Below the pieces are notes generated by a model. That model searched no databases and had not been told where the DNA came from. It worked only from the letters and a program-made list of their open reading frames with translations. This document shows, piece after piece, positions 1 to 52,519 of a stretch of DNA of 56,977 bases (position 1 is the first letter of the stretch; each line of letters starts with the position of its first letter). The position numbers were made by a program, and so were the translations under genes. This stretch comes from Gonapodya prolifera JEL478 (lineage: Eukaryota > Monoblepharomycota > Monoblepharidomycetes > Monoblepharidales > Gonapodyaceae). The stretch spans positions 340,126-397,102 of the forward strand of contig KQ965760.1 of assembly GCA_001574975.1 (NCBI GenBank), written 5' to 3'.

Positions 1-410
1 GCGTATTCCTTGGTCAGGAAGTCTCCGCTGTAGGGCAGGACTTTGCCGGTGAAAACTGGGCCCGTCACATTGCCACCAGTGATGGGGACGAAGTTGCGCT
101 CGAAGGTGAGATTGGTCGCATTCGGCGCCGCAATGGCGATGGACCGAGCGACTGAAGCTTCGATGAAGAACGCGTATTTGAGACCCGGAGCGGGGGGTTC
201 TGGGGTATTGTGCACTGTGTGAGGATCAGCTCTTCAGTCGCACTGATGCAAGGAATGGTTGCGTTCATTTTGACGCGGATACTCACATTGCAATCCCTTA
301 ACGAGGCCCTCCAAAGTGGAAACATCCGCACGACCCACGTTGGCGAAAAGGGTGACGAGAAGAAAGATCGCGCCTGCGAGGACGCTCCAGGATCGGAGTA
401 CGTGTGCCAT
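1..410 (-). CDS. Secreted DUF3237-family protein, truncated by window edge
   Basis: Two exons are visible: 287-410 and 1-214, with the gene running off the left edge. Exon 1 starts at the ATG at 410 and encodes a short basic head followed by a hydrophobic run (VLAGAIFLLVTLFANVG), a credible signal peptide. The donor is GTGAGT and the acceptor ACACAG; the phases join. Exon 2 carries FVPITGGNVTGP and GKVLPYSGDF, which match the core of the DUF3237 (UPF0311) family, where a PITGG...G...G.VLPGG.D pattern is characteristic. The biochemical role of that family is not established. The C-terminal part lies outside the window. The family call rests on motif recall; the signal peptide and splice sites are directly visible. 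Confidence 0.68.
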
Positions 411-1517
411 GCAGGTGCGGACGAGGTGCGAGGTCCACAGTTTGGTAAAGATAGCACCGATCTGATTGGCACCCGCTTTATAATCCCGGTAGAATCATTG
501 GGGGGCAGATTCGTCGTAGGGCGGCGTTAGTGGGCGGGCCGGTGGTTGCTCCCTAGAACCTCCCATCCTTGGTGTAAGCTGTCGTCTGCGATTCGACCCC
601 GATTCAAGAGATTCTATCCGGAAGGGTTCGGAAGAGAGATTTTCTTGTAGGTATGAGGGACAGGCACCGGGGAGTGTCGGAAATTCATGACGTCAACGGG
701 GGATTGTTGAGGCTAAGACCCACGCCTGCACACCCGCCTCCACAACCGAGCAAAACCAAACGTGGAGCGCCTCAAAACCGTGAGAGTTTTGTGCATAGAG
801 ATGTGGCTATCTCCACGCTATTCCGGAATGGTCCACCCTATTTGACTCAGGCATGTTAATCCAATGAATGGAGAGCCATGATCTTGCGATGTACCCTTGC
901 GTAAAAGCTTAGCTTTGTAAAAAAATGACGGACAGTGTATTCAAATACATTTATCGATATGGATTTCAGTTAATGCTCGAGACTTTCGGCTCGAAACAAC
1001 ACGAGCTGTCGCACTAAACGACCAAAGTTGCCGGAGCACTCATCACCACATCCATAGGAGCGCCATGCGACGTCCCACTCCCAGACCCACTGGTCTGGCC
1101 TCCATTCGGGGCTGTATGGGTCCCTGCTGCACCCTCGTGGCGCCCTGATGATCCGTGTCCGGTACCTGCCCCGACTCTGAACCCGAGAGAAGAAGGTGGC
1201 CGTATCCGAGCCACGATGCGAGGAATAGCTCCGGGAAGAGCCGACTTAAAGTCCTCGGCCTTGGCTTTCCCCTTCACCGCTTCGGTCATCTTCTTGCTTG
1301 TGATCTTGGGAACAATGGTACCGCCGTACGGTAGGGCGCCTCGTCGAGGAGCTGGCTCGGTCGGCCATCGTGGTGTGTCCGCTTCGGCAAAGTCGAGGAA
1401 GTCTTGGATGTGGTCGCGGGGAATGTGCCAGGACTTCCGAAGAGACGTGGTGTGGGCGCACGTCTGAGATACGGGAGAAGACCGGACTTGGAGGGAACAC
1501 TCACGTTTCCTGTTCCT
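411..1517. other. No secure gene; possible extra 3' exon of the neighbour
   Basis: I see no confident gene between 411 and about 1013. From 1014 to 1500 the minus strand keeps an open frame with protein-like content (for example KKMTEAVKGKAKAEDFKSA), preceded by a good 41-bp intron (GTGAGT...CTCAG, about 1459-1499). It may be a 3' exon of the coiled-coil gene to the right, but its phase does not match the upstream exon, which ends in TAA at 1518. Either the gene has an alternative 3' end or there is a one-base problem in this stretch. Confidence 0.4.
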
Positions 1518-2395
1518 TTAACCGTTTTCTGCGGCGTTGACTTTGAACGTCTCCCACGTGTCTGGGAACCTTGACTTGAGGTACTCAACTGGGAGCGACT
1601 GCTTGCTCCTTCGCCGGCCACTGTGGGGTTAACCAGAGGGGTCGAATGAGGACGGGGCGTGACTTTGCGTTTTGAGCAGTTCGACTCACATAGCGGCCTT
1701 TCCAACGATGTGTACGTATCGGTCCCAGGCACCTTGGTAGTGCTCTTCGCAAATTCGCATCCAGGGAACGAGTTCGGTGGGTGGGTAGGGACATTCGGCG
1801 CTAGAAGGGATATAGTCAGTGTGAGGTTTTATCAGAAACCTACGGAGGTCGGACAAGGCACCGCTCACGGAGGATTATAGACGCGAGGCGGACGCTTTTC
1901 CCCGACGATACGAATTGAGTCAAAAGCCTTCCACCGGAGAGCTGTAGCCAAACCACTCACAGCTGAGTTCGGATTCGCAGGTCGAATCTTCTTCGCCGGC
2001 GGCCCCACCCCATCAACCACATCCCCCGCCTCCGCCTCCGCCCTTCTTTTCCGTGGCCAGAACGACGCCAGTAGCTCGTCCACCGACCCGAACCCCGCCG
2101 GCAGCCGCCTCTGCACCTCCCTCCTCCACTTTTCGCGGTCCCGCTCGAACTCATGCTTGCTCCGCGCCAGCGCCACCGTCGCCGACTCGATTTCGAGCTC
2201 GGTCAGGCGAATCTCCTGTCGCCGCGCTTTGAGGTCCAGCCGCGCGCGCTCTAGGTCGACTTCGTCCCGTTCGAGAGCAACCTCGGCGCGATGGATGGCG
2301 AGGGTCACGCTCTCCAGGTGGACTTTCTTCTCGCGGAGAATGGCGGTGAGCTCGTCCATGGAGTCGTCGGAGGAATCGAGAGATTCGCGGGTCAT
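1518..2395 (-). CDS. Coiled-coil protein of unknown function
   Basis: Modelled exons are 1869-2395, 1690-1800 and 1518-1620; donors are GTGAGC and GTGAGT, acceptors TTCTAG and CCACAG, and the reading phase is kept through to TAA. The start is the ATG at 2395. Residues about 10-110 are a long charged heptad-rich helix (alternating E, R, L, A), so a coiled coil is expected. A basic stretch (PRKRRAEAEAGD, then PPAKKIRP) could be a nuclear localisation signal. The second and third exons encode a compact aromatic segment (YPPTELVPWMRICEEHYQGA). I do not recognise a family. The 3' end is uncertain because good coding signal continues further left in another phase. A nuclear or scaffold role would be inference only. 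Confidence 0.55.
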
Positions 2396-2568
2396 TGTGT
2401 TGGAAGCCGTACAAGTTGATGTGGCATCGAAGAGGTGAGGAATGTCTCGTTTATTATTGTAATCTACGTTTTAGATTTATCTTCTTTAGGCACAAAATTG
2501 TGACGCTTCTTTTTGACTTTTGACATGACGTTTCCAAAAACACCTCGCTCCGACCTCCACGTCCAGAC

Positions 2569-5339
<2,771 letters not shown>

Positions 5340-5480
5340 AGGCACTACGGAGGCCCCGAAATGTCCACACACACGAGGATAACACTTCTCATTGCATGCA
5401 CGAGATCGCCGAGACTATACGTTCCATTGGGAGACGAAAGGCGGAACTCGGGTCCTGGACACGCTCTTGACGCTTGAGCC
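5340..5480 (-). pseudogene. Relic of the ankyrin/coiled-coil/SH3 family
   Basis: On the minus strand this stretch aligns by eye with the part of the intact 7955-9614 paralogue that follows its ankyrin region (plus-strand 8883-8980). Shared landmarks are the DNA around gcacgcgaccgccgagact / gcacgagatcgccgagact and gcgacgaaaggc / gagacgaaaggc, and at the protein level a SRRSRA element followed by VDIS/MDIS. Several stop codons and frame changes interrupt it. Only about 140 bp are recognisable, so it is a short decayed copy, not a gene. It lies just downstream (minus sense) of the two intact tandem copies. Confidence 0.6.
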
Positions 5481-5670
5481 TCGAATAAAATCAATATTGC
5501 ACGGTGATAATGAAGGTGAGTATTTTACTTATAGTTCATGGGAACTACGACGATACTACTATACCTAATTACGATCAATGATCAATGAGGTGTGGCCGTT
5601 GAGCTCCTGGAATCTCCCACCTACAAATCAAATCGCGGCACGTATATGTATTACACCGCTCATATAAAAA

Positions 5671-7413
5671 TCACGCTCCAGGTGCATGTGGGGAAGAAAT
5701 CGCTCCAAAGAACTGTCTCCAATACTGCGCCGGAACCGGTTGACTCCCTCTCGACTGGCCTACGAACGTCATCAACGACAAAGCCGCCGATGCCAGCGCG
5801 CCATTGGCATTGGCATTACGTGAGTCCGTTGTGGTGCTCGATTGCGTGAGAGACTCGACGCGAGAGCTGGTCTCGGGAAGGTCCAGTTGTGACAGGATGG
5901 AACTGCTGTCGTCCGGGTCGGGCAGGCTCTCGGCGACGTGTGAGAAGGGGAAAAACCCGAACGCGTAGGTTCCTGCGTGGAGACCCTGTGCAAAGGTGGA
6001 AACGACTCGATTTAATCATTGCGCGCTGTTCGAGTCAAAATGACAGGGATCACGTCTGCAAAACACACCGAAGCCCATCCGTCTGGAAACACCACTGCCA
6101 CAAACACAGGATCACCGATCGACAACATGATTTCATCCAACTCTCTCGGTTGAAAGTTCCCCACCGCGTACATGAGCCGGTTAATAGTTCTGGTGGTCCG
6201 TGCTTGCCTCACAATCTGTGCATGCAGCGCGTCGACTTCCTTCTTCAGGGCGCCGTTTACTTCTGTCAGGGATGACACCTGTTGGCGCAAGGTGGAGGTC
6301 TCTGTTTGGAGGGCCGTGTTTTTACTCTGAAGAGCTGCATTTTCACGGGCGAGGTCTTGAGTTTCACGTTCCTGGGAAGCTATCCGGGCTGATACGTCTG
6401 CAATATGTGAGCGGAGCGATGCTGCTTCTCTCTCCTTCTCCTCGGTCCTGGCTTTGGCAGTTTCAGCAGCTCGCTCCGCCTTCGCAAGCTTCGACCTGAG
6501 TCTCTCAACTAAGGCACTTTGTTCAGTGCCGAGCGCAGCAGGATCTGAACTCGACGCACGCGTCGACTGGAAGTTGGAGGATGTCGATCGAGGTAGCGCC
6601 GTGCCGAAACTGCTCCGCGACGCCCGGGGAGGACTATGGTCCACGGCTTGGCTTTCGACCGCCTGACAGCACGCCGCGTCTGGACACATCTTCGCGGCGC
6701 GAAGTTCCTGAGTTCGCACAATAGCTCCATTCGAAAGAAGCGCCCGCACAATTTCAACTCGGGGTTGCAGGCGGTGGGAAACGCGCACCGCGGACTCATT
6801 TCGAGGGTTGCTAATTATGACGTTGGCGCCAGGATGGTTGATGGATACGTGTCCGCTTTTGTCTGGTCGTGGGTCTGGACGTTCTGCCGGAACCAACCCA
6901 ACGCGCGTGGAGAGACCGCATCTTCCAAGTGCAAGACAGAGTATGCTTGGAAAGGTTATTGTGGCGTACCTATGGTCATCGCAGGGTCCATGTGCGTCCG
7001 TATAAGGTCGTACAGAACGAAGCTCACCATCGTTTTGACTCCCAATCCTTCACGGTCCAATAGTCACGACCATCCTCGGGACGCTCTCCGATTCCTTTCA
7101 ACCATCCGTTTGCAATTGTCCACGCCACCTTTTCCTCTATATTAGCACCGTGGTCTAACAGTTCCTCGACAATTTCGCTGAACCCGTGAATCACGGCGAG
7201 CACTAGCGCACTCTCGCACTCGATGACATCTGTTTTGACTTCGACGTCGTCCGCTCGCCATATGTTGTGGCGCACGACGACTCGGGACGATAGGGAAACC
7301 TTTTTCCGAGCATTGGGGGACGCTCCGGCTTGGAGGAGCGTGCGGACGTCCGAGACGTCGCCGGCCTCGATGGCATTAATGAGCGCGTCGTCGTGCGTGT
7401 GACTCGTTTGCAT
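5671..7413 (-). CDS. Ankyrin / coiled-coil / SH3 protein, copy A
   Basis: Exons 7028-7413, 6069-6969 and 5671-5985 give 533 aa with all phases closed. The start is the ATG at 7413. Residues about 8-35 (DALINAIEAGDVSDVRTLLQ) and about 70-100 (ESALVLAVIHGFSEIVEELL) are ankyrin repeats; a third weaker one surrounds RVEIVRALLSNGA. Then come a Ser-rich linker and a long heptad coiled coil (about residues 270-380). The C-terminal third has an SH3-like fold signature: MYAVGNFQPRELDEIMLSIG, then FPDGWAS, and FGFFPFSHV, interrupted by an intron exactly after GWAS. The protein ends in a 60-residue low-complexity tail with QYWRQFFGAIS. It is a paralogue of the next gene to the right, which has identical length. 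A scaffold role is inference from domain types; the combination as a family is one I do not recognise. Confidence 0.82.
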
Positions 7414-7954
7414 CCCAGTTTTCTCTGCCGGGGGGAGTTGCCGAGGAACCTCAGTCGTTTGGTCTCCTTGGGCTCCCCTCAGAGTGCCGCAGTATATTTG
7501 AATATCGCTTGGCACTTTGAAACCGAATTCAAGTGATAGAGAGAGAAAAGAGCTGACCAAGCTCAACAGATATTCCATTCGACCTGAATGACGTGCTGTC
7601 ATTCGGTGCCGAACTACGTACGTCTGAAATAATCGAACAGGTGGGCTCCACGCCACCACCTCTTCACAAACATTTAATGGGATTGATGCCCCCAAACGGC
7701 AGTTCAACGGCCTTTCATTCCTTTGCGGGTGCCTCATTTGGACCTTCCTGTTTCGGTCAATCCGGGTCCACACATATATTCGACACTTGATAAATTCGAG
7801 TGGCGCCACACAGTCAAAAAACTCTTTACGAAATCCGTAATAGAATAGGATACAATACTCAAAACAATAGTAAAGATTACGGAGAACCGCTCGACTCATT
7901 TCTCCCGAAGTTGACCAACACCCAACTCCTCACAGCTCCTCACCCCACGAACCG
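7414..7954. other. Intergenic spacer between tandem paralogues A and B
   Basis: About 540 bp upstream of copy A and downstream of copy B. The minus-strand frame stays open upstream of the chosen ATG but its composition (a Leu/Ser-rich run, then mixed residues) is not shared with the paralogue, so I treat it as 5' flank. No RNA gene or repeat is recognised. Confidence 0.5.
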
Positions 7955-9614
7955 CTACCCCGCCGACGACTGAGGCGCATTGGAAATCGTTGCAAAGAAC
8001 TGTCTCCAGAACTCCACGGGCACATTCTGCGGCGTCGTGACTCCTGAGCCTGTAACGGCGTGCACACTCGTTCCAAAGGAGGGTCGCTCGGAGTCGATCA
8101 TGGAGCTTGTTTCCGTGAGAGACTCCCACCGCGAACTTGCGAGTGGTGCAATCGTGCTGACGGTTGCGGCGCTGGCGATGGACATGGCGTCGACTTGGGA
8201 AGCTGACGTGTTGGTGAGGGAAAGAGCAGGCGGCACGTCCGAGACGTGGCAGAAGGGGAAGAACCCGAATCGGTGTGTGACTGCATTCAAACCCTGGACA
8301 TCTCGGTTTAAACCTTGGAGAGGAGGGGAGAACGGGAACTTGAAGCCTTACCGAAGCCCATCCGTCCGCAAATGCCAACGCCACAAACACCGCATCTCCC
8401 GCCGCGAGGCCAATCTCATCTTGCTCTCTCGGGTGGAAATCCGCCAGGGCGAACATCACTTTATTGACGATCCGCGTAGCTCGGGTGGCCCGCTTGGTGA
8501 TTTGCGCGCGGAGGGTTGCGGTTTCGCGTTTCAGAGCGATATTCTCCTCGGTGGTGGATGCAAGCTGCTGCTGGATGCGGGATATCTCTGTTTTGAGGGA
8601 TGTGGTTTCGCGGTCGAGGTCCAACACTTTAGTTGTGAATGTGGAATTGGTTGCGGCAAGCTCCGCGTTTCGGGCCCGTTCCTCGGCGAGAGAGGTTTCG
8701 TGCTCTGTGAGTTTGAACTCCGCGGCAGTGACGGCCCGCTCGGCAGTCAAGGCTCGCGCAGTGAGCCGTTCGATCATTTTGGCTTGGTCCGTGATGACCT
8801 TTGTCGCGTCCACCACTGAGGAATGGGGAGCGTACTGCGACGTTTGAAGATTCCTAGAAATGTCCATTCCCATGAGACTGCTCGTAGATGCACGCGACCG
8901 CCGAGACTCTGCAAAAGAGCCCTCCACCAAGCGACGAAAGGCCGGGTCTGGGCACGCTCTGGCAGCTTCGACCTCGGCGTCTCCCACGCGTGCTCCGCTT
9001 GCCAGGAGTAAGCGAACAATTTCAATGCGTGGATTGAGACGGTGCCAGACACGGACGTCGACGTCGGAGCGCGGGTTGTCGATAAGGACGTGTCCCCCCA
9101 TGCGGTTGATAGATATGCGGCCTTGGGCGTCAGGACGCGGCTCGTAAACGCCCTCCCATTCCAAAACGGATTTCCCGCCTTGCCCAAGTGCGAGGCATAG
9201 TGGAGAAGGGAAGGAGTAGGTCGAGTACCACCGTCGCGAGGCCCACTCCTCCTGAGTCCAGGTTGTCTCGTGGGGTTCCTTCTTCATCCACCCGTTCCCA
9301 ATGTTCCAAGAAACCATGCCTCTCGGGGAAACGCCATTCTGGAGCAACACCTCCACGATCTCGACCAGCCCATGAACGATGGCCAGCACGAGGGCCGACT
9401 CGCACTCCATGGTGTCTGTCTTGTTTTCGACGGAGTACCCGCCCCATATCTTCTGTCTCCCAGTCACGCGGCAGGTGATGGTGACTCGTTTCCTCGCTGT
9501 GGCGGAAGCTCCGGTGCGTAATGCGTTTCGGACGTCTGCTGCAACTCCGGACTCGACGATGGATATGAAGTCTGCGTTGGACGGCACACGCGTGGTGGTC
9601 GAATGCCCTCGCAT
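7955..9614 (-). CDS. Ankyrin / coiled-coil / SH3 protein, copy B
   Basis: Exons 8352-9614 and 7955-8293, 533 aa, phases closed; start ATG at 9614. The domain order matches copy A: ankyrin-type segments (ADVRNALRTGASATARKR; ESALVLAIVHGLVEIVEVLL; RIEIVRLLLASGA), a coiled coil (about residues 290-400), then SH3-like blocks MFALADFHPREQDEIGLAAG, FADGWAS and, after the intron, FGFFPFCHV. The tail again ends with an aromatic FWRQFFATIS element. The intron inside the SH3 domain is at the same residue as in copy A. Copy A's first intron (after SKRW) is absent here, where RRWYSTYSFPSPLCLALG is read straight through. Tandem, same-strand duplicate of copy A. Confidence 0.82.
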
Positions 9615-10159
9615 CGCTGGTCGGTACGCGTCTATTCGTGACCCGGGAATTCCCTAAATATATTGAGTGAGGATAGGACACGGCCGCAGATTCAGGGGTG
9701 GCCCGAGAGAGCACACTGCGATGGAATCCAGCTAAGATGACGCGCTAAACATCACTCACTATTAGAGACAGCTCTTTGGTGCGATTTCTACCCCTCCTTG
9801 CCCCGCAGCGCGCAACGGCATGTTGGGTGAAGTGAATGAATACATATCGTTCCCGATTTATGGTTACAGATTCCAGGCTGGCAGCAGATATACCACATTT
9901 GACCGGAACCATTAGGCAGAATATTGTAGTACCCATCAATTGATGCCAAGTGCGCCACTCCAATGTACATATAAGATCTATAGCAGGTTTTTTTTTTGTG
10001 ACGTTGGCGTCCGATACCGGAAGTTGTGGTGGTGCCAAATGCATTGCCCATGCAGTTTAAAAGGTCAGAATGTAAAGCGCTGGTAGCGGTCGGCCTAAAT
10101 TGACGGGAAACCGCGGAAGACCCCAGCCAAACCTCCCGTGCTCGAATGGAAAGACATCG
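9615..10159. other. Divergent intergenic region
   Basis: About 545 bp between copy B (minus) and broken copy C (plus). It contains a nine-base T run near 9990 and no convincing coding frame. As a head-to-head spacer it probably holds both 5' control regions; no specific element is recognised. Confidence 0.5.
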
Positions 10160-11815
10160 ATGGAATCGAGTCACAACGGCAAACTTATCACCGCGATCGA
10201 GGCCGGTAACCTTTCGGATGTCCGCGACCTGCTCCAGGCTGGAGCGTCTCCCAACACACGGAAAAGTGTGACTCTTTCCTCCCGCGTGGTCGTACGCCAC
10301 AACACATGGCGTGCTGACGACGTGGGGACCAAGACGGACGTGATTAAATGCGAGAGTGCTTTGGCACTTGCCGTTCTTCACGTGTTCCACGAGAAGGTCG
10401 AGGAACTTCTGGACAACGGGGCTGATATACATGAAAAAGTGTTTTGGACAATAGCGAACGGGTGGTTGAAAGGAATCGGAGAACATCAAGACCATTGGAC
10501 GTTGAATGGCTGGCAGACAGAACGATGGTGGGCATTGCTCACAAACTTGACCATTGCATAACACATGGCCCACGTAACTGTAGGCACGCGACAATAAGCT
10601 TCCCGAGCGTGCTTTGCCTGGCTCTTGGAAGATGCGGCCAATCAACGCGCCTTGGATCGGCTCAATCGGATCGCCCAGATCCGCGATTCGACAAACAAGG
10701 GAATGTATCAATCAAGCACCCTGGCGCCAACGTTACAATTGACAACCCTCGTAGTGACGGCTGTTCGCGTTCGCCACCGACTGGAACCTCGAATTGAAAT
10801 CGTGCGTGTTCTCCTTTCGAGCGGGCCAAGGTCGGAACTGCAGAATTGCGGGCAGCGAAGCTGTGTCCAGATGTGGCGTACAGCCACACTGCTGAGAGTC
10901 ACGTCGCGGACCAGACTCCCCCCCGGGTGTCGCGGAGCAGTGTTGGTACAACATCGGCCGCTCCCTCGACGACCTTCGCTTCACACCCCCACACCCGTGG
11001 GGCGCTCAGTTCGGACCCTGTTGTTGTCATTGCCGAACAAAGCGTTTACATTGAGAGCCTCACGTCCAAGGCTGCAAAGGCGGAACGTGAAGCTGAAGCT
11101 GCCAACAAGAAAACAGAAGAAATGGAAAGGGAAGCGGCATCACAACGTGCAATCGTTGCTGATCTTTTAACCAGGGTGGGCCCTGAGGAGCTGAAAGTTG
11201 AAAGGCTCACCGCGTCTTAAATACTATACTCGACATTTAGAATTCTATCCTCGAGCTCCAGGCATCCAGTCTCCGAGGAGAGGTGGAATCTTTGACGGAC
11301 AAAATCTCCAACTTGATGACAGAAATGGACAAACTTCGTGCTCAAATACAATCGCGATCACCAACAATCTTGAACGACTTCATGTTAGCGGTGGGGAACT
11401 TCAACCCAAATGAGCCCGATGAAATTGAATTGGTGGCGGGATGTGAAGTGTTTGTGGCAATGCTGTTTGCAGATGGATGGGCTTCGGTATGTATTGGTAG
11501 ATGAAATTCAATTTCTCTCGGACCCACCTTTGCCACTTGCCAGGGCTGAAACGCAGTTTCTCGCATGTCGACGACAATCCACCCGTCTTCACCGATGATG
11601 GCTCTTTTATCTCACAATTGAACCTTGGAGACACCAGCTCTCGTACAGTCTACATCAGGCATTACTGCCGATCCGACGAATTCTGGATTGGCGCCATCAG
11701 TACCGATGACAAGACTCTCTACACAGCCTTAGTCGGCCGGCTCCAGCGCATTATTATGGACAGTTTTTTGGAGCAATATCAACCCCCCACGGATTCGGTG
11801 CATGACAGCCGATAG
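10160..11815 (+). pseudogene. Broken copy C of the ankyrin / coiled-coil / SH3 family
   Basis: Starts well: MESSHNGKLITAIEAGNLSD and the ankyrin part are highly like copy A, with a donor after the equivalent SERW/TERW position (about 10527) and an acceptor near 10585. After NPRSDG (about 10760) the frame shifts to keep AVRVRHRLEPRIEIVRVLLS. A second shift near 10828 restores ELRAAKLCPDVAY. A third lesion (stop TAA at 11218, frame change and an in-frame TAG near 11237) separates the coiled coil from ILELQASSLRGEVESL. The SH3 first half is intact (MLAVGNFNPNEPDEIELVAG, FADGWAS plus the conserved intron), but the second half lacks the FGFFPF block: it reads GLKRSFSHVDDN. Gene content is the same as the intact copies but it lies inverted relative to them. 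Pseudogene by at least four independent lesions. Confidence 0.85.
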
Positions 11816-12001
11816 CGACCATGTTCAGATGAACTCTGCTAGAATCCGACGGAACTCAGTCGTTCATATATATGTTCCACCGTCCAATAGTTTTGTTCAA
11901 GAAATTGTTGTGATTACAATGAAAAGTTTGGTAGCAAGGTTATCGTTTTCTTCAATTACGTCCAACCGACTCGCCGCACAAGTCGACGCAAGGGGAATAT
12001 T

Positions 12002-13488
12002 TCAACACGTCGCGGAGGTCCATAACAATTGTTGTTCCTCCTGTTGACGCATAGTCGCGGAGGCGTGCTCTCCCGGAAAGAGCATCCGACCGCCACTTGG
12101 GTCGCACCGGATGTGCTTTCGCCTCACGCGATCGTACGGCCCCAGGTCCACCACTAGTGGTTGGTCACAAAGCTTCACTTTTGTTCGTGAAGTGCTGCCC
12201 GAGGTCTTCGACTTTGTGGAAGAGTGGGTGACGTTGACCAGCGATGCGAGGGAGCCGGGTGTTATGGCGGGGTGGTGTTTGGAGAAGGATGAGTTCGGGC
12301 GAGAGCTTTCCGTCAGGAGGAGCGTCGAGAGGGAGCGCAATGTGTCCACGAGGGCTGATGGGCGGTTTGTCTTGGCAGATGATGATGTGGCGCTGAGGAC
12401 ACCGGACGCACGAGAAGCACGGCGAGTGAGGTCGGTTCCTCGGGGTGGCTTCGGGCGAGAGTCGGGTGCTTCGGTGCGTTGCCTGAGAACACGGGTAAAC
12501 GATTGATATGTGTGGTTGCGACAACTATCAGACAAGGACGAACCTCGAATCCACTTGCATCAAATCATACATAGTTTCGTCTTTCAATTCACTCGGCGGG
12601 GGAGTTACAGTACTGAGCGAGGCACTTTCCCTGTAGACACACGAGGGGTTGATTACAAATCAATAATACATTCAAACCGGTAGATTGAACTCACTCGACA
12701 GTAGACATGAAAACATGGCGGGCAGAAGACATGGGTGCTGACGATATGCTGCGATGCTCATACTGATGTCGCCTCGTCACTCGCACCGCCGCAAGTCGGG
12801 ACCGCCTCTGGAGTGTCATGATGGCGGCGTTCATCGGCCGAGGGGATTGATGGGCCGATGCCGGTGAGGGTACACGACTGGTGTGGTTTTGTGCGGATTT
12901 TTCGGGATGGCGAGGAGTCGGAATGGGCTCAGGCTTTAATGGAATCAAACTTAAGTCGAGGAACGACATTCGCCTCCAAGTTGATTCCTGGGAACTCACC
13001 TTTTGGATATTCACCTCGTCAGACGTTCCAGCTATAGTATTTCCATCTTCTGAGAGCAGCAATCGCGAGCAGAGAGTGGCCAGTCTGTCCAATCCCGACT
13101 CTGAGCGAAAAGGCGGTATCGCGGGCAAAGTCCCAAAATCCATCGGATCTCGACTCGACTCCACTTCAGAACACCCTCTATACATCGCATCGCCGTCCAG
13201 TGACATCGATCGCGGTCTTTGAAACACTCGACGTAAAGAAACGTCCGCCGAATGATGGCCGCCAGCATTCCCGGCCTCCCAAGCGTCCCCCGGGAGCGAA
13301 TTCCATCGATGAAGCGCGCGATCGTCGCTTTGAGTCTTTCGTGCGGGATCTCTGCTGCTTCTGCGAGATTCTGCGCTGCGACCAGCCATCCGCCGGTGGA
13401 GGAGGTGCGGTGGGCGATGGAGAAGGGCGAGACCGGCGAGCGCCTCATGCGGTGCGTTGGGCGGAAGGACAGACGCGAGAAGTTCCAT
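12002..13488 (-). CDS. Ser/Arg-rich, largely disordered protein
   Basis: Exons 12695-13488, 12544-12630 and 12002-12482 join in phase to 453 aa. Start ATG at 13488. The first exon has basic, Arg/Ser-rich stretches and a central more structured patch (GLDRLATLCSRLLLSEDG). The 87-bp middle exon encodes ETMYDLMQVDSR-type sequence and the last exon a Ser/Thr-rich region followed by DQPLVVDLGPYDRVRRKHIR, a short motif that looks conserved but that I cannot assign. An optional 66-bp in-frame intron with GTGAGT...AAAG may exist around 12935-13000. Phosphorylation-rich regulatory protein is the most I would infer. No known domain recognised. Confidence 0.6.
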
Positions 13489-21662: not shown

Positions 21663-22870
21663 ATGTTGATTCTTTTGAAACCAAGGAGGGAAAAGGTTCA
21701 AAGGACGCCGGAGCAGCTTTGCCTGGAAGCTTACTGCGAGCTGCTAGACGAAGTGCAGTCCCTTTCGGCGCACAACGCGCACTGCTCCTGTCAGGGGGAA
21801 CAGGCGAGGGTGGCTGGGTGAGGCCGTGAGCACGCGGAGGGCGTGCGAGAGACGAGTACGAGAGTGAACCGAGAGAGGGAGATCCGAGAGGTCACGCCAA
21901 GTGACCGGAGAGACGAGCGAGACGAGGGGAACGAGATGAGCGAGCGAGGGTGAGGATCGAAGTCGGATCTTATTTTGTAGCAGTTTACATTCATTTATAA
22001 ATCGCCAGATTTCTAGTTTACGCTAAGAGGGTGAAGTCCAACTGCTGGGTGAAGTCCAAAAGCTTCCGGATTTGAGGAATCGTGGTGCCAGAGGTTGGCC
22101 ACAGCAACTTGCGAGGGAGCCCGCCCAAGCCCCTCGCACTCCTCTGTACAAAATCTCGTGGTTTCAAGAGGGAAATGTTGAAAAAGCACGCGTTCACACT
22201 GCAGAAGGAGTTCTGGGAGCTGGTTCGCTTGACTAGTGTTGCTCTCCGTCTCGCTCGAGGTGGTTTGTTCCGGATCAAGTTGGCACAACCTAATTGTCTG
22301 TGACGGTGACCTTGCCACTTTAGATATCCTACAGAAGTCCAGTAGGCTCATCTATTTCCAACTCGCAAGATCAACCTGGGCCGTCTTCGGAAGAGGAAGC
22401 GCATGACGTTGCTGATAGGCTCACCCGAGTGCCTGAGGGAGCACCGGACGACTCTCCTATAAAATATCCCGCGTCTGCAACAGATCGAGACATTTCCAAT
22501 CTTGATATCGAGGTACTTTCACATTTTTCCATGGTTTAGTACATGAGCACGTGGACAAGCCATTGATAATAATCGGTCCCATTAAGCTTATACCACTCAG
22601 GTTCAACGTGAACAGCAGGGGCTCAAAACAGAGTGATTTGAAATGCACCTTATTGAGGCCACTCGAAATCTGTGCCGATGTGGTGGGAATACATCCAACG
22701 TTGACCTCGATGAAGTATTGGCGCGTTGGCTTGTGGAGAATTCAAGAACAGGCGAGGTCGCGCCAGAACATTTTCTCCTCCTTGACGATCTTCCGAGGGT
22801 GAAGGCGCTGTGCGAAGTGGACATTGGGAGTTTGGTGGAAACCTTGGTGGACATTATGCACGACGACTAG
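21663..22870 (+). pseudogene. Decaying multi-exon gene of unknown function
   Basis: Plus-strand pieces are protein-like: from the ATG at 21663, LCLEAYCELLDEVQSLSAHN followed by a GTGAGG donor near 21819; then about 22040-22230 with LPDLRNRGARGWPQQLAREP; then up to 22512 SSEEEAHDVADRLTRVPEGA before a GTACTT donor; then 22601-22870, ending HFLLLDDLPRVKALCEVDIG...HDD and a stop. The last exon has an in-frame TGA at 22634 and the middle part hits a TAG after GAGS, so the gene looks broken, although missed introns are possible. No family recognised. Confidence 0.4.
21836..21960. repeat. Purine-rich GAGA low-complexity tract
   Basis: About 125 bp dominated by GAG/GAGA/CGAG words on the plus strand, falling inside the probable first intron of the decaying gene. 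Degenerate, not a clean microsatellite. Confidence 0.7.
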
Positions 22871-29430: not shown

Positions 29431-29905
29431 CGACCTAACCATGAGATGAAGGCGTTATCTTGGCACCAATTTTGTACCGAGCCCGTTTGGGATGATCTCG
29501 GTCGATGCACTTCTGAATTTTTGGATTTGATAAACACTTCCTTAGATTTCTTTGTCAACACATGTGAAGAGTGGCTGTGACCGAAGTTGAGGAATATTCT
29601 TGTATTCTTCGGGAGCTACGAGCGCAAACAACACTCCGACGTCTTGCGAAGGAGTGTGTTGATCGTCGATGTCGCCAAGGAGGCTCCAGTGCTCGATGGC
29701 GCACGGACGAGGGGCTTCCACCGCGCTCATCTGGAACTCGACCGCTCCACGACGTCAATCGTCGGACATCGCTGTCGCAGCCTTTCAGCGTGACATTGAT
29801 TAGACGTCGTCCATCATCAAGATCGAGTAAGGTCGGTCAGTGCCTCTTCCAGTCATGGTGATCGGATCCAACTACGCAAAATCTCTCATAGCTCAGGTGA
29901 CAACG
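29431..29905. other. Intergenic between TMBIM gene and HMG gene 1
   Basis: About 475 bp. Open frames on both strands without recognisable content. The frame of HMG gene 1 is open upstream (to about 29840) but the first convincing starts are at 29855 and 29906. Confidence 0.45.
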
Positions 29906-31150
29906 ATGGCTTCACCCTCGCTCTCTCCTTTTGGACCGGAATTTCCCTCGATTGCGTCTTTCAACACATTCGAGTCGCGCTTGCTTCCGCAGGCTTCTCA
30001 AGCTGACAGAGATCCCGAACCTCCCGCTGCATTTCTATCCGACGCTGCGGCTGACTGGGACATTGATCAACTAATTGCTACACTCCATCCAAGCTTGAGA
30101 CCCGACGACAGGGATCGAGGTGCTTGTGCAGGGGAACAAGGGAACCTGTCATCGTCGACGTATCACAGCGATCCTTTGTCGTGGGACTGGGACTGCAAGG
30201 CACAGACTGTGGAGTTGCAGGCACCTGAAGCATCGAACGATTTCGTCGAAGTCGCGCCTGCCAGTACTCCCGCTGCGGATGCGAATTCATCGCACCCATT
30301 AATCCCCGAAAATTTCGTTCCCCTTCCTTTCCCAATGATGTTTCAAGGGACAGCTGACTATTTCAGCCAAATTGGATGCTACCTGAATCTGCCGCCTGAA
30401 GATAATGGTCGCGCTCCGACCATTGATCATGCGGATCATCTGTACTTTCTCTTCCCAGCAGGAATCGGAGCGGAGTGGTACATCCCATGTCCTCCTCAAG
30501 ACAATGCTGATATGACTTCGAACAAAATCGGAAAAGTTGAGGCTCCACCGTACAATACTGAGCTCGAACATATGATTCAACAATCAAGTAAAGCTGACCT
30601 GGACATTGAAACCCGACCAAATCATGTCTCCTTTGATAATAAAGCTCCCTTCGGTGGGGATGATGAAGATTCCCGCATGAAGACCAGCAGGAAAGCCGCT
30701 AAGGGGAAGTCTGCCGCGCGGGTATGTTCGAGGCAGCGCTGGTTCCTTTTCATAGACGGCCTCTATAACAACACCCAAAAGCAGATTCGTCGGTCGGCTA
30801 GAACTCAATCCGACAATGAAATGGTACCTCCAAGTGATCACGCCCAGGCGATTGACCAGTCATTTGGAGCGAGTGCATTGCGCGTGTCGTCAGTACCGCG
30901 CCCACCCAATTCGTTTATCCTATATCGGCGAGAAGCATCCCGTGCAATCATATCGGAACACTTGGAACGGGGAGAGGCGATCTCGAACATCAAGGTCAGC
31001 AAGCTTGTGGGCGAAAGGTGGGCCAATGAAAGTCGCGAAGTCAAGCAAAAGTACGCCAAAATGGCTTTGGAGTGTCGTAAGAAGCACATGGAGCTCTATC
31101 CTGGGGTGTGTTTCAGTTTTGCAGGTATAAACCTCAAACGCAGGTCCTAA
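29906..31150 (+). CDS. MATA-type HMG-box transcription factor 1
   Basis: Start chosen at the ATG 29906 (MASPSLSPF); an ATG at 29855 is possible. One open frame of 414 aa; a 60-bp in-frame intron (30722-30781, GTATGT...AAAAG) probably removes 20 residues. The N-terminal two thirds are disordered and acidic. The HMG box sits at about residues 328-400: RPPNSFILYRREASRAI, SNIKVSKLVGERWANES, KQKYAKMALECRKKH and ELYPG. RPPNxFILYR plus IxxSKLVGxxW is the MATA_HMG subgroup, found in fungal mating-type and sex-locus regulators. The usual YKYxPR after YPG is displaced by a short GTGTGT...GCAG stretch, so the 3' splice structure is uncertain: YPG may continue as YKPQTQ after an intron. Convergent with HMG gene 2. 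Confidence 0.85.
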   Translation: MASPSLSPFGPEFPSIASFNTFESRLLPQASQADRDPEPPAAFLSDAAADWDIDQLIATLHPSLRPDDRDRGACAGEQGNLSSSTYHSDPLSWDWDCKAQTVELQAPEASNDFVEVAPASTPAADANSSHPLIPENFVPLPFPMMFQGTADYFSQIGCYLNLPPEDNGRAPTIDHADHLYFLFPAGIGAEWYIPCPPQDNADMTSNKIGKVEAPPYNTELEHMIQQSSKADLDIETRPNHVSFDNKAPFGGDDEDSRMKTSRKAAKGKSAARVCSRQRWFLFIDGLYNNTQKQIRRSARTQSDNEMVPPSDHAQAIDQSFGASALRVSSVPRPPNSFILYRREASRAIISEHLERGEAISNIKVSKLVGERWANESREVKQKYAKMALECRKKHMELYPGVCFSFAGINLKRRS

Positions 31151-31588: not shown

Positions 31589-34107
31589 TCATTCCGTCAT
31601 CACTGATGAGGACGAATGGGATCTGGATCTCGCAAGAATCTCATTCTGAATATAAAGGGGGTTCGGCATTTCGCAGCATGTATTTGTTTGGATTCACGGG
31701 GAACTTTGGAACGTAGGAAATCAGACAATTGCGACAAAAAGGAACTCAAGGAAAGAAACTCACATCATTGTAATCCCTTTTCGACCTTCTCTGCACCATC
31801 TTCCTTGGAGCGTACTTGTAGCCCGGATACATTTCTGCGTGCTTCCTCGCCTCTTCCTTCTGCATCGCCGCGTATTTGGCCTTCACCTCTGCACTTTCTT
31901 GTTGCCACATCTTCCCAACCAACTTCGAGATTTCAATGTTGGAGATCGTCATTCCGGCCTCGAAATGGGAAATCACAATCTCCTTGTGCTTGTCACGACG
32001 ATACAGCACAAACTGATTTGGTGGGCGGGGCGGACCACCCCATAAACGTGGCTTTCGGTTCGGATCTCCACTCGCAGTTGTTGGAGGTGGCGTCAGCTGA
32101 CTGTTTGTTTCACCGTTGGGATCAGGCCTGTGTTGGGCATTAATCGTGGCCAGGCTGTCGGTTTTCCTTTTCCGTGGTGCTCTTGGTTTCCAAGTCGCCG
32201 ATTTTTGTTTCGTAGTCGCCGGATTCAAGATGTTCGACTGAGATGGACCGCCGACAGAAACGTCTCCTCTTGGTGTGACAGTGCGGCGTTTTCGAGGGCC
32301 CGCTGGTGGACTGGCCTCGCGGGTGAGCCGTAAGTCGACGGTAGACGAAACCCATGTCCGAGGATCGTCATCATCCATCTGAGAAGCCCGATCCCACGCA
32401 GAATCATCCATATCCATCTGTACAGGCGGATTGGTTTCAAAAGGCCCTGTTGCATCTTCAAGTTCGATTGCTTGCGTCCTCCTTTCTGGGTATGTCGACC
32501 GTCTCCGAACTCTAATGTAAATCTTTGGTAGAGGTGGAAGCGTTCTAAGTCGCTCCCGAATGTCTTCGGTAGAAGCCTCCAGTGGGGCGTCTTCCGGCTC
32601 ATCGTCTTCCTCGTCGTCGTCAGAACTTTGATCAAAGTTCCACGGATCCGATCTGTCTTTCATCTTTACATCCTCCTCTTCAGATGACGAAATATCCTCG
32701 AGATCGGATTGGGTTGGCGGTGGGGTTGGGGCATCATCGCTTGTGTCATCGGCATCACTTTCGACTGGGCGCTTCTCTTCTGTGTGTGCAGGTGCTTCCT
32801 CCGTAGTAACATCATCTGGGGGAGGAGCCGGGTCGCGGTTACGAATCGGTAAGTCGGCAAAGGTAATATTCTCGCTCCGAGAAGGGAGAAAGAGCTCGGT
32901 GTAAACAGACGGAACGGATGCGGTGGTGGAAGTGGCAGCGGAATTAGCCGGGGAAATACCACGCTGTGGACGGGTGGACGTATCTTCGGTAAAACTAAGT
33001 CATAGATTTCACGTAGTCCTGCTCACCTGTGGAGGCTTCAATTCCAGCATATCCAATACCTCCCAGCCGGGCCTATAAACCATCCCCCCCCTTGACGTCC
33101 AAGCACGAACATCTTCTTCTTTGATCTCCCCTGTCATTACTCTATGCTTCCACAACCTGTACTTTTCGTGGTGTTCCAGGGCCTTCTGTTGAGCCATAGC
33201 CTGGAATCGCTGTTTGACCTCGTTACTTTCCACCCTCCACATCTTGGCGACGAGCCGGGAGACTTCAGCGTTCTGAACCTTCACACCAAGTTGATTGTAA
33301 AAGGAGTGAACTCTCCTGCTAGCCGCGCTGCGGAAAAGCAGGAAACTGTTCTCAGGGCGAGGGGGCGGAGCTGTGTCTGGGCGACGGCGGTGGTGACGAC
33401 GCTGGCAAAGTGGCGGGTCGACGATTGATTCGTAGCTACAAAAGGACGTGAGCTTACCTTCCGTGGCGCTGCGTCCTCGTCATCTTCAAATGGGTAATTT
33501 CCGTCGGCTGGGAGAAGACCTTCCGGAAGTTCGATGTCATCTTTGTCATACTTCTGGGGAGTTTCCTGCTTTCGAAAAAAAAAGTCTAAGGTGAAGAATG
33601 CAGCTCTCGGTTTTGTCCACTGGATTGTACCTTCGAAGTTGCAAGTGTTGGCACATTACTGACAACCGAAGAGGGCTGAGAATCGTCAGGGCGCTTGACT
33701 GCCAGTGACTGCTCCATATTAGCAAGTTCAGTGTCCGATGGGTCCGAATCCCATGCTGAGGAGCGCTTCTTACGGCCCCGTATCGTGGGTTTAGATCCTC
33801 GATTAGCTTTTTTGACATTATTGGACTTCTGGCCTCCTTGGTTGATAGTTCTACCGTCAGTCAGTAGCGTCGTATCAGTGGCGGATGGGGTAATTGGGTT
33901 GGAAACCCTTGCAGAAGAACGGGGAGGTTGATTTTGAAGTTGGGGTTGCATTGGAGAGTTGTGGCTCCCCGTTTGGCGTTCGTCGGACGCTACTACCATA
34001 TCCTGGCCCCTTTGGTATCCAAAAGATGGGTGAGAGCCTTGTTGAAACCATTTGAGACCAAAGGCGCCCTCCGGATTGTGGTGAATGGTTGCAGGGTGAG
34101 AGGGCAT
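31589..34107 (-). CDS. Two-HMG-box MATA-type transcription factor 2
   Basis: Exons 33631-34107, 33458-33565, 33027-33401, 31764-32963, 31589-31645 join without phase break to 738 aa. The first HMG box (exon 3, about residues 205-275) reads RPENSFLLFRSAASRRVHSF, VQNAEVSRLVAKMWRVES and KQRFQAMAQQKALEHHEKY: a diverged box. After it comes a Trp/Tyr-rich segment and a long acidic, Pro-rich linker. The second box (about 631-705) is a canonical MATA_HMG: RPPNQFVLYRRDKHKEIV, SNIEISKLVGKMWQQES, YPGYKYAPRKM, followed by a basic QRRSKRD tail. The N-terminus has NLS-like GRKKRSSAW. A short last exon encodes a Ser-rich end. I chose the ATG at 34107; one at 34170 would add a hydrophobic head unlikely for a nuclear protein. 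Confidence 0.86.
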
Positions 34108-45241: not shown

Positions 45242-46909
45242 TCAAATCTTGGCCCTCGGTCCACTCGACTTCACACCACCTCCACCCTCGGAACCCGAAC
45301 TAGACTGCTTCGTCTCCAGCGACTGCCGTCCAGCCGCGTTCGCTTCCACAGTACGCGCGTCGCGCGCAGGACTGACGATTACGGTGCCTTGCATTTGCCT
45401 GTGAAATTTGCCGGCCGGGGTGGAGACCAACCGCGAACGCGTTTCGCGTGAGTGTACATGTAGTCGAATCCAACTATGAGTTGAGATATAGCACATGGGT
45501 ACCCTCCGGCCTCCACGAGACCGCAACGTACCTCGCAACAGCCAACAAAGTCCCCCCGTCATCCCACACCTCAATATCGAGGCATTTACGCCCGTTGGTC
45601 GCGTAGGGAACCTTGGACCGGAGGAGGACCCATTCGGTGGAGGGTGGGGGGATGTGTCGGATTTGGAGGGCGAAGTCCATTGTCTGGCGGGGTGGGGGGT
45701 GGCGGCGGGTCGTGGTTCAGATGGTTAACGACGTGCCACGTGAGGTTTTGAAAATGAGAACAAGAAACGTACAGGCGACCACTGCCGCACTCCCGAGTGC
45801 ATCTGCGGCCCGAAGAACTGGTGGATGATGATGGGGTTTATGGGCGTGTCGCCCCAGAAGGCCATGCTGGGGATGGATTGGACGTCGCCCGAGTTCCACT
45901 AGACGTTACGTCGACGGGTGATCACAAAAGCTCATGCCAAGTACAAGGAAAAGAGAACTCACCCGAACCCATTTACACCACTCAGCTCCGATCGGCAAGT
46001 CCCCAAGCTCCCCTTCCTCGTACTTCTGGTGCCGCACGTCAAAGAACTCACGGAACATCTTCCCCGTCCTGGGGCTGTGGTAATGGTCCTTCCACACGGT
46101 CTTGGACTCTACGGGCATCGTGTCGGCGAGGCGGGGGAGGCTGAGGCCCACACCGACGGTTAAAGAGCCTGAAGGGGATCGTAAGGCGGAGGGGAGGAAT
46201 GGGTCCGTTATGGGTGTCTTGCCGTCGTCGGAAAGGATTGTGGTCGTCCCGCGTTCGGATGCGAGGTCGGACATGGTAATTTTGGCGGTGAGGAGCGTGA
46301 TCCAGGGTGCGGAACCCGAAGCGAGGCCGGGTTTNGGGAGGGACAAGGGTGATTGCCGGATCGCGACGTCGAACACGGCGAACCGGCCCCCGATGCGGAC
46401 GGGTGTCACGAGTGCCAGGTATGCGTCGGATCGACCTGCTTCCAGGAGCGTGGCCGAGAGCGAAACGGGTTCTGGTGCGAACAAGAGATGCGTTAAGATT
46501 GATGCAAACCATTTGGGCCACGACAGGAGACGCACCTGGGAACCGCCCATCAATCCCCAACCTCGTGACCTCCAACCTCGCGGCCTGCATCGCAACACCC
46601 ACGACGTACCCTCCAAAGGGCGCGACGCCCGTCAGGAACTGGTCGTCGATTCTCCCCTCCCAGCACGCCGTCACGTGGTCGCCGCCGAGTTCGGGGAGGG
46701 AAGGGCGAGAGATGGCGGCGCGGAATGACATGTGCAGTGCGCGCGCTGCGTGTGTTGTGGGTGCGGAGAGTGCAGAGTCGGAAGCGGATTTGGTTCCGAG
46801 GGAAGGGAAGCTCACCGAACGGGCGGGCGCTCCCGCCGGATGCAGAAGAGTGCGCCTCTGTGCGGTCGGTGGAGCCACCGGCCTGTCGGTGCGGGTAATG
46901 CGTGCCCAT
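45242..46909 (-). CDS. Acyl-CoA thioesterase-like, double hotdog, copy 1
   Basis: Six exons: 46816-46909, 46536-46745, 45963-46471, 45773-45898, 45532-45683, 45242-45398; 415 aa, all phases closed. N-terminal hotdog: ACWEGRIDDQFLTGVAPFGG followed by YVVGVAMQAA, the typical F.G.i....w......GGY.....A pattern of thioesterase-like (TesB/ACOT8-type, 4HBT_3) proteins. The second half has GDTPINPIIIHQFFGPQ, TMDFALQIRHIPPPSTEWVL and CLDIEVWDDGG, and a tail with QMQGTVIVSPARDART. Such enzymes hydrolyse acyl-CoAs in peroxisomes or cytosol; substrate unknown. Start chosen at 46909 because it aligns with the start of copy 2 and fits the phase of exon 2. One N at 46335. The C-terminal AKI is not a clear peroxisomal signal. 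Confidence 0.85.
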
Positions 46910-50947: not shown

Positions 50948-52519
50948 TCAAATCTTCGCCGGCACACTGGATCCACTTCCAGTGTCTCCATTTGATCTCT
51001 TCGTCTTGAGCGACTGTAGTCCAGCCGCGTTGGCCTCAACGGTGCGCGCCTGCCTCTGTGCACTCACGACAACAGTGCCCTGCATTTGCCTGCATGTGAT
51101 AAAAGAGTAAAGAAAAGCCTGTGACGACGTCGGTATGTCCAGCGTACCTTGTGATAGCAAGTAAGTTCCCTTGCTCGTCCCACATTTCAATGTCGAGGCA
51201 TTTGCGACCGTTTGTCAAGTATGGTGCCTTGGACCGAACAAGAACCCATTCCATGTCAGGAGACGGAAGGCGCCGTATTTGGAGGGCAAAGTCCATGGTC
51301 TGACAATGCCATCGCGGGGTGGTAAGCGACGAGTCGCATGCCACATGTCACATGTGTCGCGTGTTTTTGACCAGCACAGTGGGATAACTCACTGGAGACC
51401 ATTGACGCTCCCGTCCTTGGGATTTTGGGCCAAATATATGGTTAATGATGATCGGACTCATGGACATATCGCCCCAGAACGCCATGCTCGGAATGTCTTG
51501 AACGTCCCCTGAATTCCACTGCCATGACATGATCAAACGCAGACTTTAATCTCTACACACCCACCACACAAACGACATCGCACCGACTCACCCGAACCCA
51601 TTTACACCACTCAGCACCCATCGGCAAGTCAACAATATCCTCCTCCTCATACTTTTGATGCCGCACGTCAAAAAACTGATGAAAGAACTTGCCTGTCCTC
51701 GGGCTCTTGTAATGTCCCTTCCACATCGTCTTGGGCTCCAGCGGCAACGCGTCCGCAAGTCGCGGAAGCCCCAACCCGAACCTCGTGGCGCCCGGAGGTG
51801 AGTGTAGTGCAGATGGAAGGAACGGGTGGTCCACAGGCGTCTTGCCGTCATCCGAAAGGATGGTGGTTGTGCCCCGCTCGGACGCAATGTCAGACATGGT
51901 GATTTTTGCGGTGAGGAGCGTGATCCAGGTTGTGGAACCAGCGGCCGAGGCTTTAGGCAAAGGCGCTTGCCGGATTGCGACGTCGAACACGGCGAAGCGG
52001 CCCCCGATACGGACGGGAGTTACGACTGCCAGAAAGGCGTCGGAGCGGCCGGCTTCCAGGAGGTTTGCGGAGAGAGAAACTGGTTCTGTGGCGGACGAAT
52101 GTTTGCTCGTCGACTTCGATGGAAAGCAGTACCGCCGCGCATAACAAGACACGCACCAGGAAACCTCCTCTCAATTCCTCTTCGCCTCACTTCCAACCGC
52201 GCAGCATGAAGTGCGATCCCCAAAACGTACCCCCCGAACGGCGCAATTCCAGTTAAGAACTGGTCGTCGATCCAGCCCTCCCAGCACGCCGTCACCTGAT
52301 CACCCCCGAGCTCCGGAAAAGAGTTAAGGGTGATGCCCTTGCGGAACTTCATTTCGAGAGCTCGAGCTGTGGGTGAATTTTGTGTCGGAAACGAACGATT
52401 CAACATCCGAGCGATTTCCAAGACTCACCGAACGGTCCGCCCCTCCGGTCGGATACCAGTGGTGCAGCGCCTTGATTGGTGGCGCCATCGCGGTGTTCTG
52501 GTGGAGAATGCGCTTCCAT
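50948..52519 (-). CDS. Acyl-CoA thioesterase-like, double hotdog, copy 2
   Basis: Six exons: 52429-52519, 52157-52366, 51592-52085, 51393-51518, 51148-51299, 50948-51089; 404 aa, all phases closed. Every intron sits at the same codon and phase as in copy 1, and exons 2, 4 and 5 have identical lengths (210, 126 and 152 bp). Motifs repeat those of copy 1: ACWEGWIDDQFLTGIAPFGG, SERGTTTILSDDGKTPVDHP, GDMSMSPIIINHIFGPKSQG, TMDFALQIRRLPSPDMEWVL, CLDIEMWDEQG, QMQGTVVVSAQRQART. The N-terminal 30 residues and the C-terminus have diverged most. The start is the ATG at 52519. Same strand as copy 1, so a direct tandem duplication with about 4 kb between. Located 97 bp downstream of the asparaginase gene. 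Confidence 0.87.

Follow-up and report, generated by a model that had tools for sequence, protein, structure and literature searches.

Two intact members of an ankyrin, coiled-coil and SH3 protein family in Gonapodya prolifera, with a candidate SH3-docking motif in their tails

Two intact paralogous genes, copies 1 and 2, lie in a 56,977-nt stretch of the Gonapodya prolifera JEL478 genome (contig KQ965760.1, handle C30, positions 340,126 to 397,102, reaching the contig end; hereafter the window; assembly of 47.6 Mb in 207 contigs). They are members of a large, old family of probably intracellular adaptor proteins that combine an ankyrin-type N-terminal domain (N-domain), a coiled coil, an SH3 domain and, in many members, an R-hydrophobic-[DE]-S-[LR] motif in the tail some 20 residues past the SH3. 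We propose, tentatively and at somewhat less than an even chance, that these proteins are oligomeric scaffolds whose SH3 docks the tail motif, a putative binding read from sequence. The features of the two genes are as follows.

5671 to 7413, minus strand: copy 1, intact, 533 aa; exons 7413-7028, 6969-6069 and 5985-5671, introns of 58 and 83 nt, stop-free spliced translation.
6651 to 7413, minus strand: copy 1 ankyrin-type N-domain, residues 1-235, with an intron inside; Pfam Ank 35.8 bits (cut-off 21.1).
6201 to 6563, minus strand: copy 1 coiled coil, approximately residues 265-385; a/d register 0.54 LIVMF against 0.27 when shuffled, reached in 0 of 1,000 shuffles.
5935 to 6173, minus strand: copy 1 SH3, residues 395-446, split by intron 6068-5986; phmmer match in PDB to the vinexin SH3, residues 397-448 (E 7e-4).
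5848 to 5862, minus strand: copy 1 tail motif RVESL, residues 471-475, from the motif census.
7955 to 9614, minus strand: copy 2, intact, 533 aa; exons 9614-8352 and 8293-7955, one 58-nt intron, stop-free spliced translation.
8910 to 9614, minus strand: copy 2 ankyrin-type N-domain, residues 1-235; Pfam Ank 21.6 bits with the N-domain alone (cut-off 21.1).
8460 to 8822, minus strand: copy 2 coiled coil, approximately residues 265-385; a/d register 0.54 against 0.30 when shuffled, reached in 0 of 1,000 shuffles.
8243 to 8456, minus strand: copy 2 SH3, residues 387-438, split by intron 8351-8294; Pfam SH3_1 26.1 bits (cut-off 22.9).
8117 to 8131, minus strand: copy 2 tail motif RWESL, residues 476-480, from the motif census.

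Gene models and domains

A first-pass annotation had described two intact 533-aa paralogues of one family, with ankyrin repeats, coiled coil and intron-split SH3 in that order. Both genes splice without stops, their proteins are 42% identical (532 columns, E 3e-128), and domain scans and alignment bear out the domain order. The alignment contains indels that compensate one another, which makes the equal length a coincidence. In both copies the SH3 is interrupted by its intron directly after the S codon of DGWAS; an N-domain intron is present in copy 1 and missing from copy 2.

Ankyrin repeat membership is clear for the family, with Pfam Ank at E ≤ 0.01 in all 42 N-domains scanned; in the full-length scan of copy 2, Ank scored 18.5 bits, under the 21.1 cut-off. 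An AlphaFold2 model of the copy 2 N-domain, built from five window rows (predicted template modelling score [pTM] 0.66), consists of helix pairs and long strands (44-56, 59-71, 101-109, 129-135 and others), predicting enlarged hairpins between repeats; this hairpin detail is provisional, as 69 of 240 residues have a predicted local distance difference test score below 50. The model is one of an ankyrin fold whose hairpins are enlarged. VIA-align superposed it on DARPin 2jab_C (Z 13.5, 119 residues, 1.9 Å) and on 7xc5, the CLPB/SKD3 ANK domain (Z 12.6, 133 residues, 2.7 Å). Foldseek with the N-domain model gave no match at E ≤ 0.001, and none at that threshold against viral models, where the best rows were mostly ankyrin proteins. 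Scans with a single N-domain found one weak Acidobacteriota ankyrin match (35%, residues 6-89) on bacterial and archaeal contigs and none on viral contigs, a result uninformative on fungal distribution. When exon 1 of copy 2 was modelled from its sequence alone (mean predicted local distance difference test score 50, pTM 0.23; readable for the coiled coil alone), a helix was placed at 267-391.

The C-terminal domain is a true SH3, as the first-pass annotation had it. Pfam SH3_1 reached E ≤ 0.01 in 22/22 SH3 domains scanned, and the family SH3 profile matched vinexin (E 4e-13) and JIP (E 4e-11) in PDB; in the full-length scan of copy 1, SH3_9 (E 0.007) and SH3_1 (E 0.1) both stayed under cut-off. 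Invariant or nearly invariant residues of the family SH3 (D22/E23, DGW, G45, G54, F56 and P57) place it among SH3 domains, which are marked by a profile of about 55 residues with RT-loop acids, Trp and G-x-F-P.

SH3 face and tail motif

Sixty-two further loci (L numbers; contigs are given C numbers) were read with a spliced protein-to-DNA aligner written for the purpose; they are the best-scoring matches, not a random sample, and eight contain N. With the family SH3 profile, a first SH3 exon and a second piece were found downstream of the N-domain in 31 of the 62, the second piece being weak in L003 (E 0.14) and L037 (E 0.22). In 30/31 loci the exon boundary falls at profile position 40-43, after DGW-x-S; L056 is split elsewhere. 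Three loci (L026, L050 and L053) hold a piece of a single SH3 exon; at L015 an SH3 lies upstream and belongs to the neighbouring copy.

W36 and P51 are kept in 22/22 rows of an SH3 alignment that covered 22 of 32 readable SH3s; five close partners (L001, L014, L040, L057 and L064) were left out, as were, for no good reason, L003, L031, L041, L047 and L068, and the face count was repeated on all 32. That count, made without copy 3 of the window and L037 (no readable DGW), has L041 one residue off register. The first ALYDY position, normally Tyr, is aromatic in none of the 32; the residue after W36 (position 37) is G in 21, A in 9, C in 1 and V in 1, and never aromatic; SH3 position 54 is H in 15, C in 7, Y in 6, F in 3 and L in 1. 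A canonical PxxP-binding SH3 was rejected on aromatic residues at the first ALYDY position (0/32) and at 37 (0/32) and on Y54 (6/32). Set against a Fus1-type face, with Cys at 37 and 54, the family has a non-aromatic 37 throughout (32/32), Cys 37 once and Cys 54 in 7/32.

The yeast Fus1 SH3 is described as deviating at the same face, with Cys at 37 and 54 (PMC5823434), as binding R[ST][ST]SL or Rx[ST]SL ligands, with R[ST]x[SW]L as a published motif (PMC5417721), and as having a profile free of prolines (PMC2756588). Within the family, R-x-[DE]-S-[LR] occurs in 18/32 tails and in 16 of these lies 19-24 residues past the SH3 (shuffled mean 0.18, maximum 2; the shuffles ignore shared ancestry, and the counts measure conservation, not independent origin). 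Taking one row per close pair leaves 14/26, divided as 14/19 in a main and 0/7 in a divergent group, a grouping made after the sequences had been seen; 14/19 is a low count, as the aligner excised the L013 motif as a false intron, whereas another model of that locus reads RYDSL. A second tail motif, DV-x-GP, is found in 13/32. The tail of L056 (C109:47883-50344), a divergent member with Cys 54, reads RTASL and fits the published R[ST]x[SW]L.

Several observations weigh against docking. The Fus1 consensus R.[ST]SL is present in 0/32 tails, the family having D/E at the S/T position. All seven Cys-54 SH3s, the most Fus1-like, lack the tail motif (three of these tails, L055, L063 and L064, run off the fetched stretch), and our confidence in docking was lowered a little because of them. 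No SH3 was seen downstream in 28 of the 62 loci within the fetched stretch, often about 1.7 kb, and the copy 2 exon-1 model continues as helix, with no strands, into its SH3 portion. The tail motif could also be a phosphorylation or 14-3-3 site. On that rather unlikely alternative, the adaptor family would be the same, its tail would be a phospho-switch marked at R-x-x-S by a basophilic kinase and bound by a 14-3-3-type or other reader, and the SH3 would have unrelated partners. The 14-3-3 motif is R-x-x-S-x-P, and several tails do read R-x-[DE]-S-[LR]-P (RLDSLP, RFESLP, RTESLP, RLESRP and RYDSLP); the motif-free Cys-54 SH3s also speak for a switch. The P, however, is present in part of the tails only, copies 1 and 2 having T there, and a switch leaves both the acidic residue before S and the altered SH3 face unexplained.

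Under the docking proposal, the ankyrin domain would hold a client and the coiled coil would form dimers or higher oligomers. The SH3 would dock the R-x-[DE]-S-L motif either within its own chain, giving a closed state, or on an adjacent chain or another member of the family, giving assembly; competing partners would open the docked SH3. Copies would multiply by local and segmental duplication of DNA, some lacking the SH3 or decaying and others conserved. An extended form of the proposal, which we hold to be rather improbable, is a self-wiring network in one flagellated-fungus lineage: scores of paralogues would grasp specific clients with their ankyrin hairpins and be joined by coiled coils and proline-independent SH3/tail docking into combinatorial assemblies. 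Exons for radial-spoke proteins that score above the family cut-off indicate a flagellum, and the presence of several genes for chitin synthase fits a fungus; the chitin synthase model also matches four bacterial controls, and weight is placed on long, high-scoring matches.

Genome-wide extent

Searched against its own genome, copy 1 gave 89 matches and the L029 N-domain 159, of which a subset was listed. Merging the listed matches places the ankyrin-type N-domain at 132 or more sites on 58 contigs; as a count of matches this is a lower bound, which includes fragments and leaves out copy 1 rows covering the C-terminal part alone. Clustering is evident, with 56/132 places less than 15 kb from another (uniform placement: mean 10.9, maximum 24 in 200 runs), and the densest contigs are C44 (19 places) and C32 (12). 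Enrichment at contig ends was absent (23/86 places against 24.6 expected, counted on contigs whose length is known and reaches 200 kb or more). At L059 (C44:125761-126255), an N-domain match lies within a 3673-aa open frame that runs into N in the fetched stretch.

A quick N-domain tree of 64 rows grouped the intact window copies with two copies on C78 (Shimodaira-Hasegawa-like approximate likelihood ratio support 99). Presence of the SH3 requires at least 17 changes over 56 labelled rows of this tree, a count that poor resolution may inflate (35 of 61 inner branches below 80).

Among SH3-type models (31 loci and three window copies), 22/34 are free of stops and frameshifts and 12/34 carry one, some of these lying in the ill-aligned tail. 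The 12 models, along with the 28 loci showing no SH3, would suit amplification without selected function, by passive local duplication with most copies heading to decay. We consider this quite unlikely, given the 22 clean models and the close pairs, where the ratio of nonsynonymous to synonymous rates (dN/dS) is far less than 1 and the SH3 is the most constrained part in four of five. Origin of copies as retrocopies is disfavoured by the intron kept inside the SH3.

Selection and turnover

Nei-Gojobori dN/dS was 0.14 for copy 1/L001, 0.12 for L014/L012, 0.36 for L040/L038, 0.09 for L057/L055 and 0.21 for L064/L063. The SH3 part gave 0.05-0.08 in all five close pairs, with one to four amino-acid-changing differences each, and had the lowest ratio of any part in four; in L057/L055 the coil was lower. 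N-domain values were 0.10-0.39. The aligner reads stops or a frameshift in L001, L012 and L038, so that three of these pairs have one member that is decaying, or possibly so. For copy 3/L003, a broken pair, the ratio was 0.46 overall and 0.79 in the SH3. Seven more distant pairs had dS of 1.2-3.1 and dN/dS of 0.11-0.56, highest in L069/L063 (0.56 at dS 1.2), and the family is old because dS is at least 1.2 in all seven. The close pairs are under purifying selection, the pattern being conservation with occasional loss and not diversification, although pairwise dN/dS averages are compatible with a few fast sites.

Besides the intact genes, the window holds two degraded copies.

10160 to 11815, plus strand: copy 3, a pseudogene in the opposite orientation to copies 1 and 2, with introns 10528-10583 and 11487-11543 still at family positions.
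5358 to 5483, minus strand: relic of a copy-2-like gene, aligning to copy 2 at 8857-8976.

The first-pass annotation had copy 3 as broken and inverted, and so it is: a frame-tolerant aligner gave five frameshifts and one stop, although the ones close to the second intron and in the tail may partly be aligner misplacement. Both copy 1 intron positions are kept, and longer segments are 48-51% identical to copy 1. The relic, which the annotation had counted as a fourth copy, also stands: its local score is 30, whereas the best of 300 shuffles scored 17 and the best of 29 other window stretches 14. Window 5318-5375, overlapping the relic, recurs on C78.

Most of window 1-12955 (12955 being the end of the fetched stretch) recurs inverted and mostly collinear on C78, in pieces between 50.9 and 66.7 kb. 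Identity is 92% over window 1-4791 and 82-86% in long pieces across 5.45-12.96 kb. The block lacks window 8040-9591, so that the body of copy 2 is gone and its ends are left, and about 4.8 kb of C78 (57.1-61.9 kb) has no correspondence to the window. The C78 block is either a segmental duplicate or a second haplotype.

The relic, the broken copies and the C78 duplicate that lost copy 2 uphold the birth-and-death evolution that had been suggested. Rapid turnover of the kind seen at self/non-self loci, suggested with it, was not supported: the five close pairs are under purifying selection, distant-pair dS is at least 1.2 and places are not concentrated at contig ends. A recognition repertoire for self/non-self or parasites, in which ankyrin domains would diversify toward ligands through birth and death, is a doubtful explanation, which we rate as distinctly improbable. 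Copy number, clustering (56/132 places against 10.9 expected), decayed copies and the 17 or more changes in SH3 presence on the poorly resolved tree speak in its favor; the N-domain dN/dS of the five close pairs, tempered by the higher L069/L063 ratio, and the lack of concentration near contig ends speak against it, as does a Pfam scan in which NACHT, NB-ARC and HET are missing from the families listed (for copy 1 the best 25 of 66, for copy 2 all 20). A HET domain search of the own genome gave no match, but neither did its control, so the result is not evidence of absence. Two related candidates were rejected: an arms-race receptor or self/non-self gene under diversifying selection, to which pairwise dN/dS of 0.09-0.36 gives no support, and a fungal NOD-like receptor, as NACHT and NB-ARC are missing from those same Pfam families.

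Effectors often belong to large families that are clustered and differ in copy number, and this family is of that kind; secretion is nonetheless highly improbable, since the N-termini of copies 1 and 2 are polar and, by hydropathy only, the maxima of both proteins fall within the ankyrin and SH3 modules (highest 19-residue values: copy 1, 1.46, in the SH3; copy 2, 2.17, in the ankyrin part).

Other features of the window

A further ankyrin-repeat open frame lies at 53304-54032 (Pfam Ank_5, 2e-9), its match to copy 2 having E 0.84 over 24 residues. Facing neighbour open frames at 29831-31150 (plus strand) and 31746-32999 (minus strand) contain HMG boxes (Pfam HMG_box, 5e-13 and 1e-14) and are possibly mating-type-like. 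A dispersed repeat of about 350 bp at 21784-22145 has more than 25 further genome places (68-97% identical). Open frames 51553-52170 and 45906-46631 are alike by eye; the former matches an acyl-CoA thioesterase weakly, below the cut-off.

Comparison with known systems

No description of an ankyrin/coiled-coil/SH3 architecture was found in the literature searched, most subscription papers lying outside the search. Ankyrin expansions in early-diverging fungi are described for Neocallimastigomycota and for Rhizophydium megarrhizum (cluster3); the likeness lies in the many ankyrin genes of zoosporic fungi, and the present family is set apart from them by description, not sequence, the available parts of the sources mentioning no SH3 partner. 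A 2022 paper on early-diverging fungi notes a lack of studies on what ankyrin repeats do in fungi.

The best PDB sequence matches, vinexin/SORBS and JIP, have the SH3 fold in common with the family; both are animal adaptors not known to have the family's N-domain. SHANK and OSTF1 are animal proteins with ankyrin repeats and SH3 in one chain, serving as adaptor or scaffold, the role proposed here for the family; the family differs by a coiled coil between the modules and by enlarged ankyrin hairpins. SHANK has PDZ and SAM after its SH3 and was rejected as a counterpart, as neither turned up in the Pfam families listed for copy 1 (the best 25 of 66) or for copy 2 (all 20). The helix pairs of DARPins and of CLPB/SKD3 ANK superpose on the family N-domain, from which they differ in that its 240 residues seem, in the model, to hold about four repeats only, because the modelled hairpins are enlarged.

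Fus1 is a membrane-spanning protein; by hydropathy, a separate hydrophobic segment was not seen in copies 1 and 2, the two proteins inspected. The family further differs from it by the added ankyrin and coiled-coil parts, D/E in place of S/T, a position 54 that is mostly H or Y and a motif missing in the Cys-54 rows. The likeness lies in the non-aromatic residue after Trp (32/32), Cys 54 in 7/32 and a motif of R-x-x-S-L type near the SH3 in many members. If the docking is real, the family would join yeast Fus1 as a natural example of an SH3 reading an R-x-x-S-L type motif, here in the same chain; it would be large enough for specificity to be read from paralogue sequences, and would give the ankyrin expansion of a zoosporic fungus a testable function.

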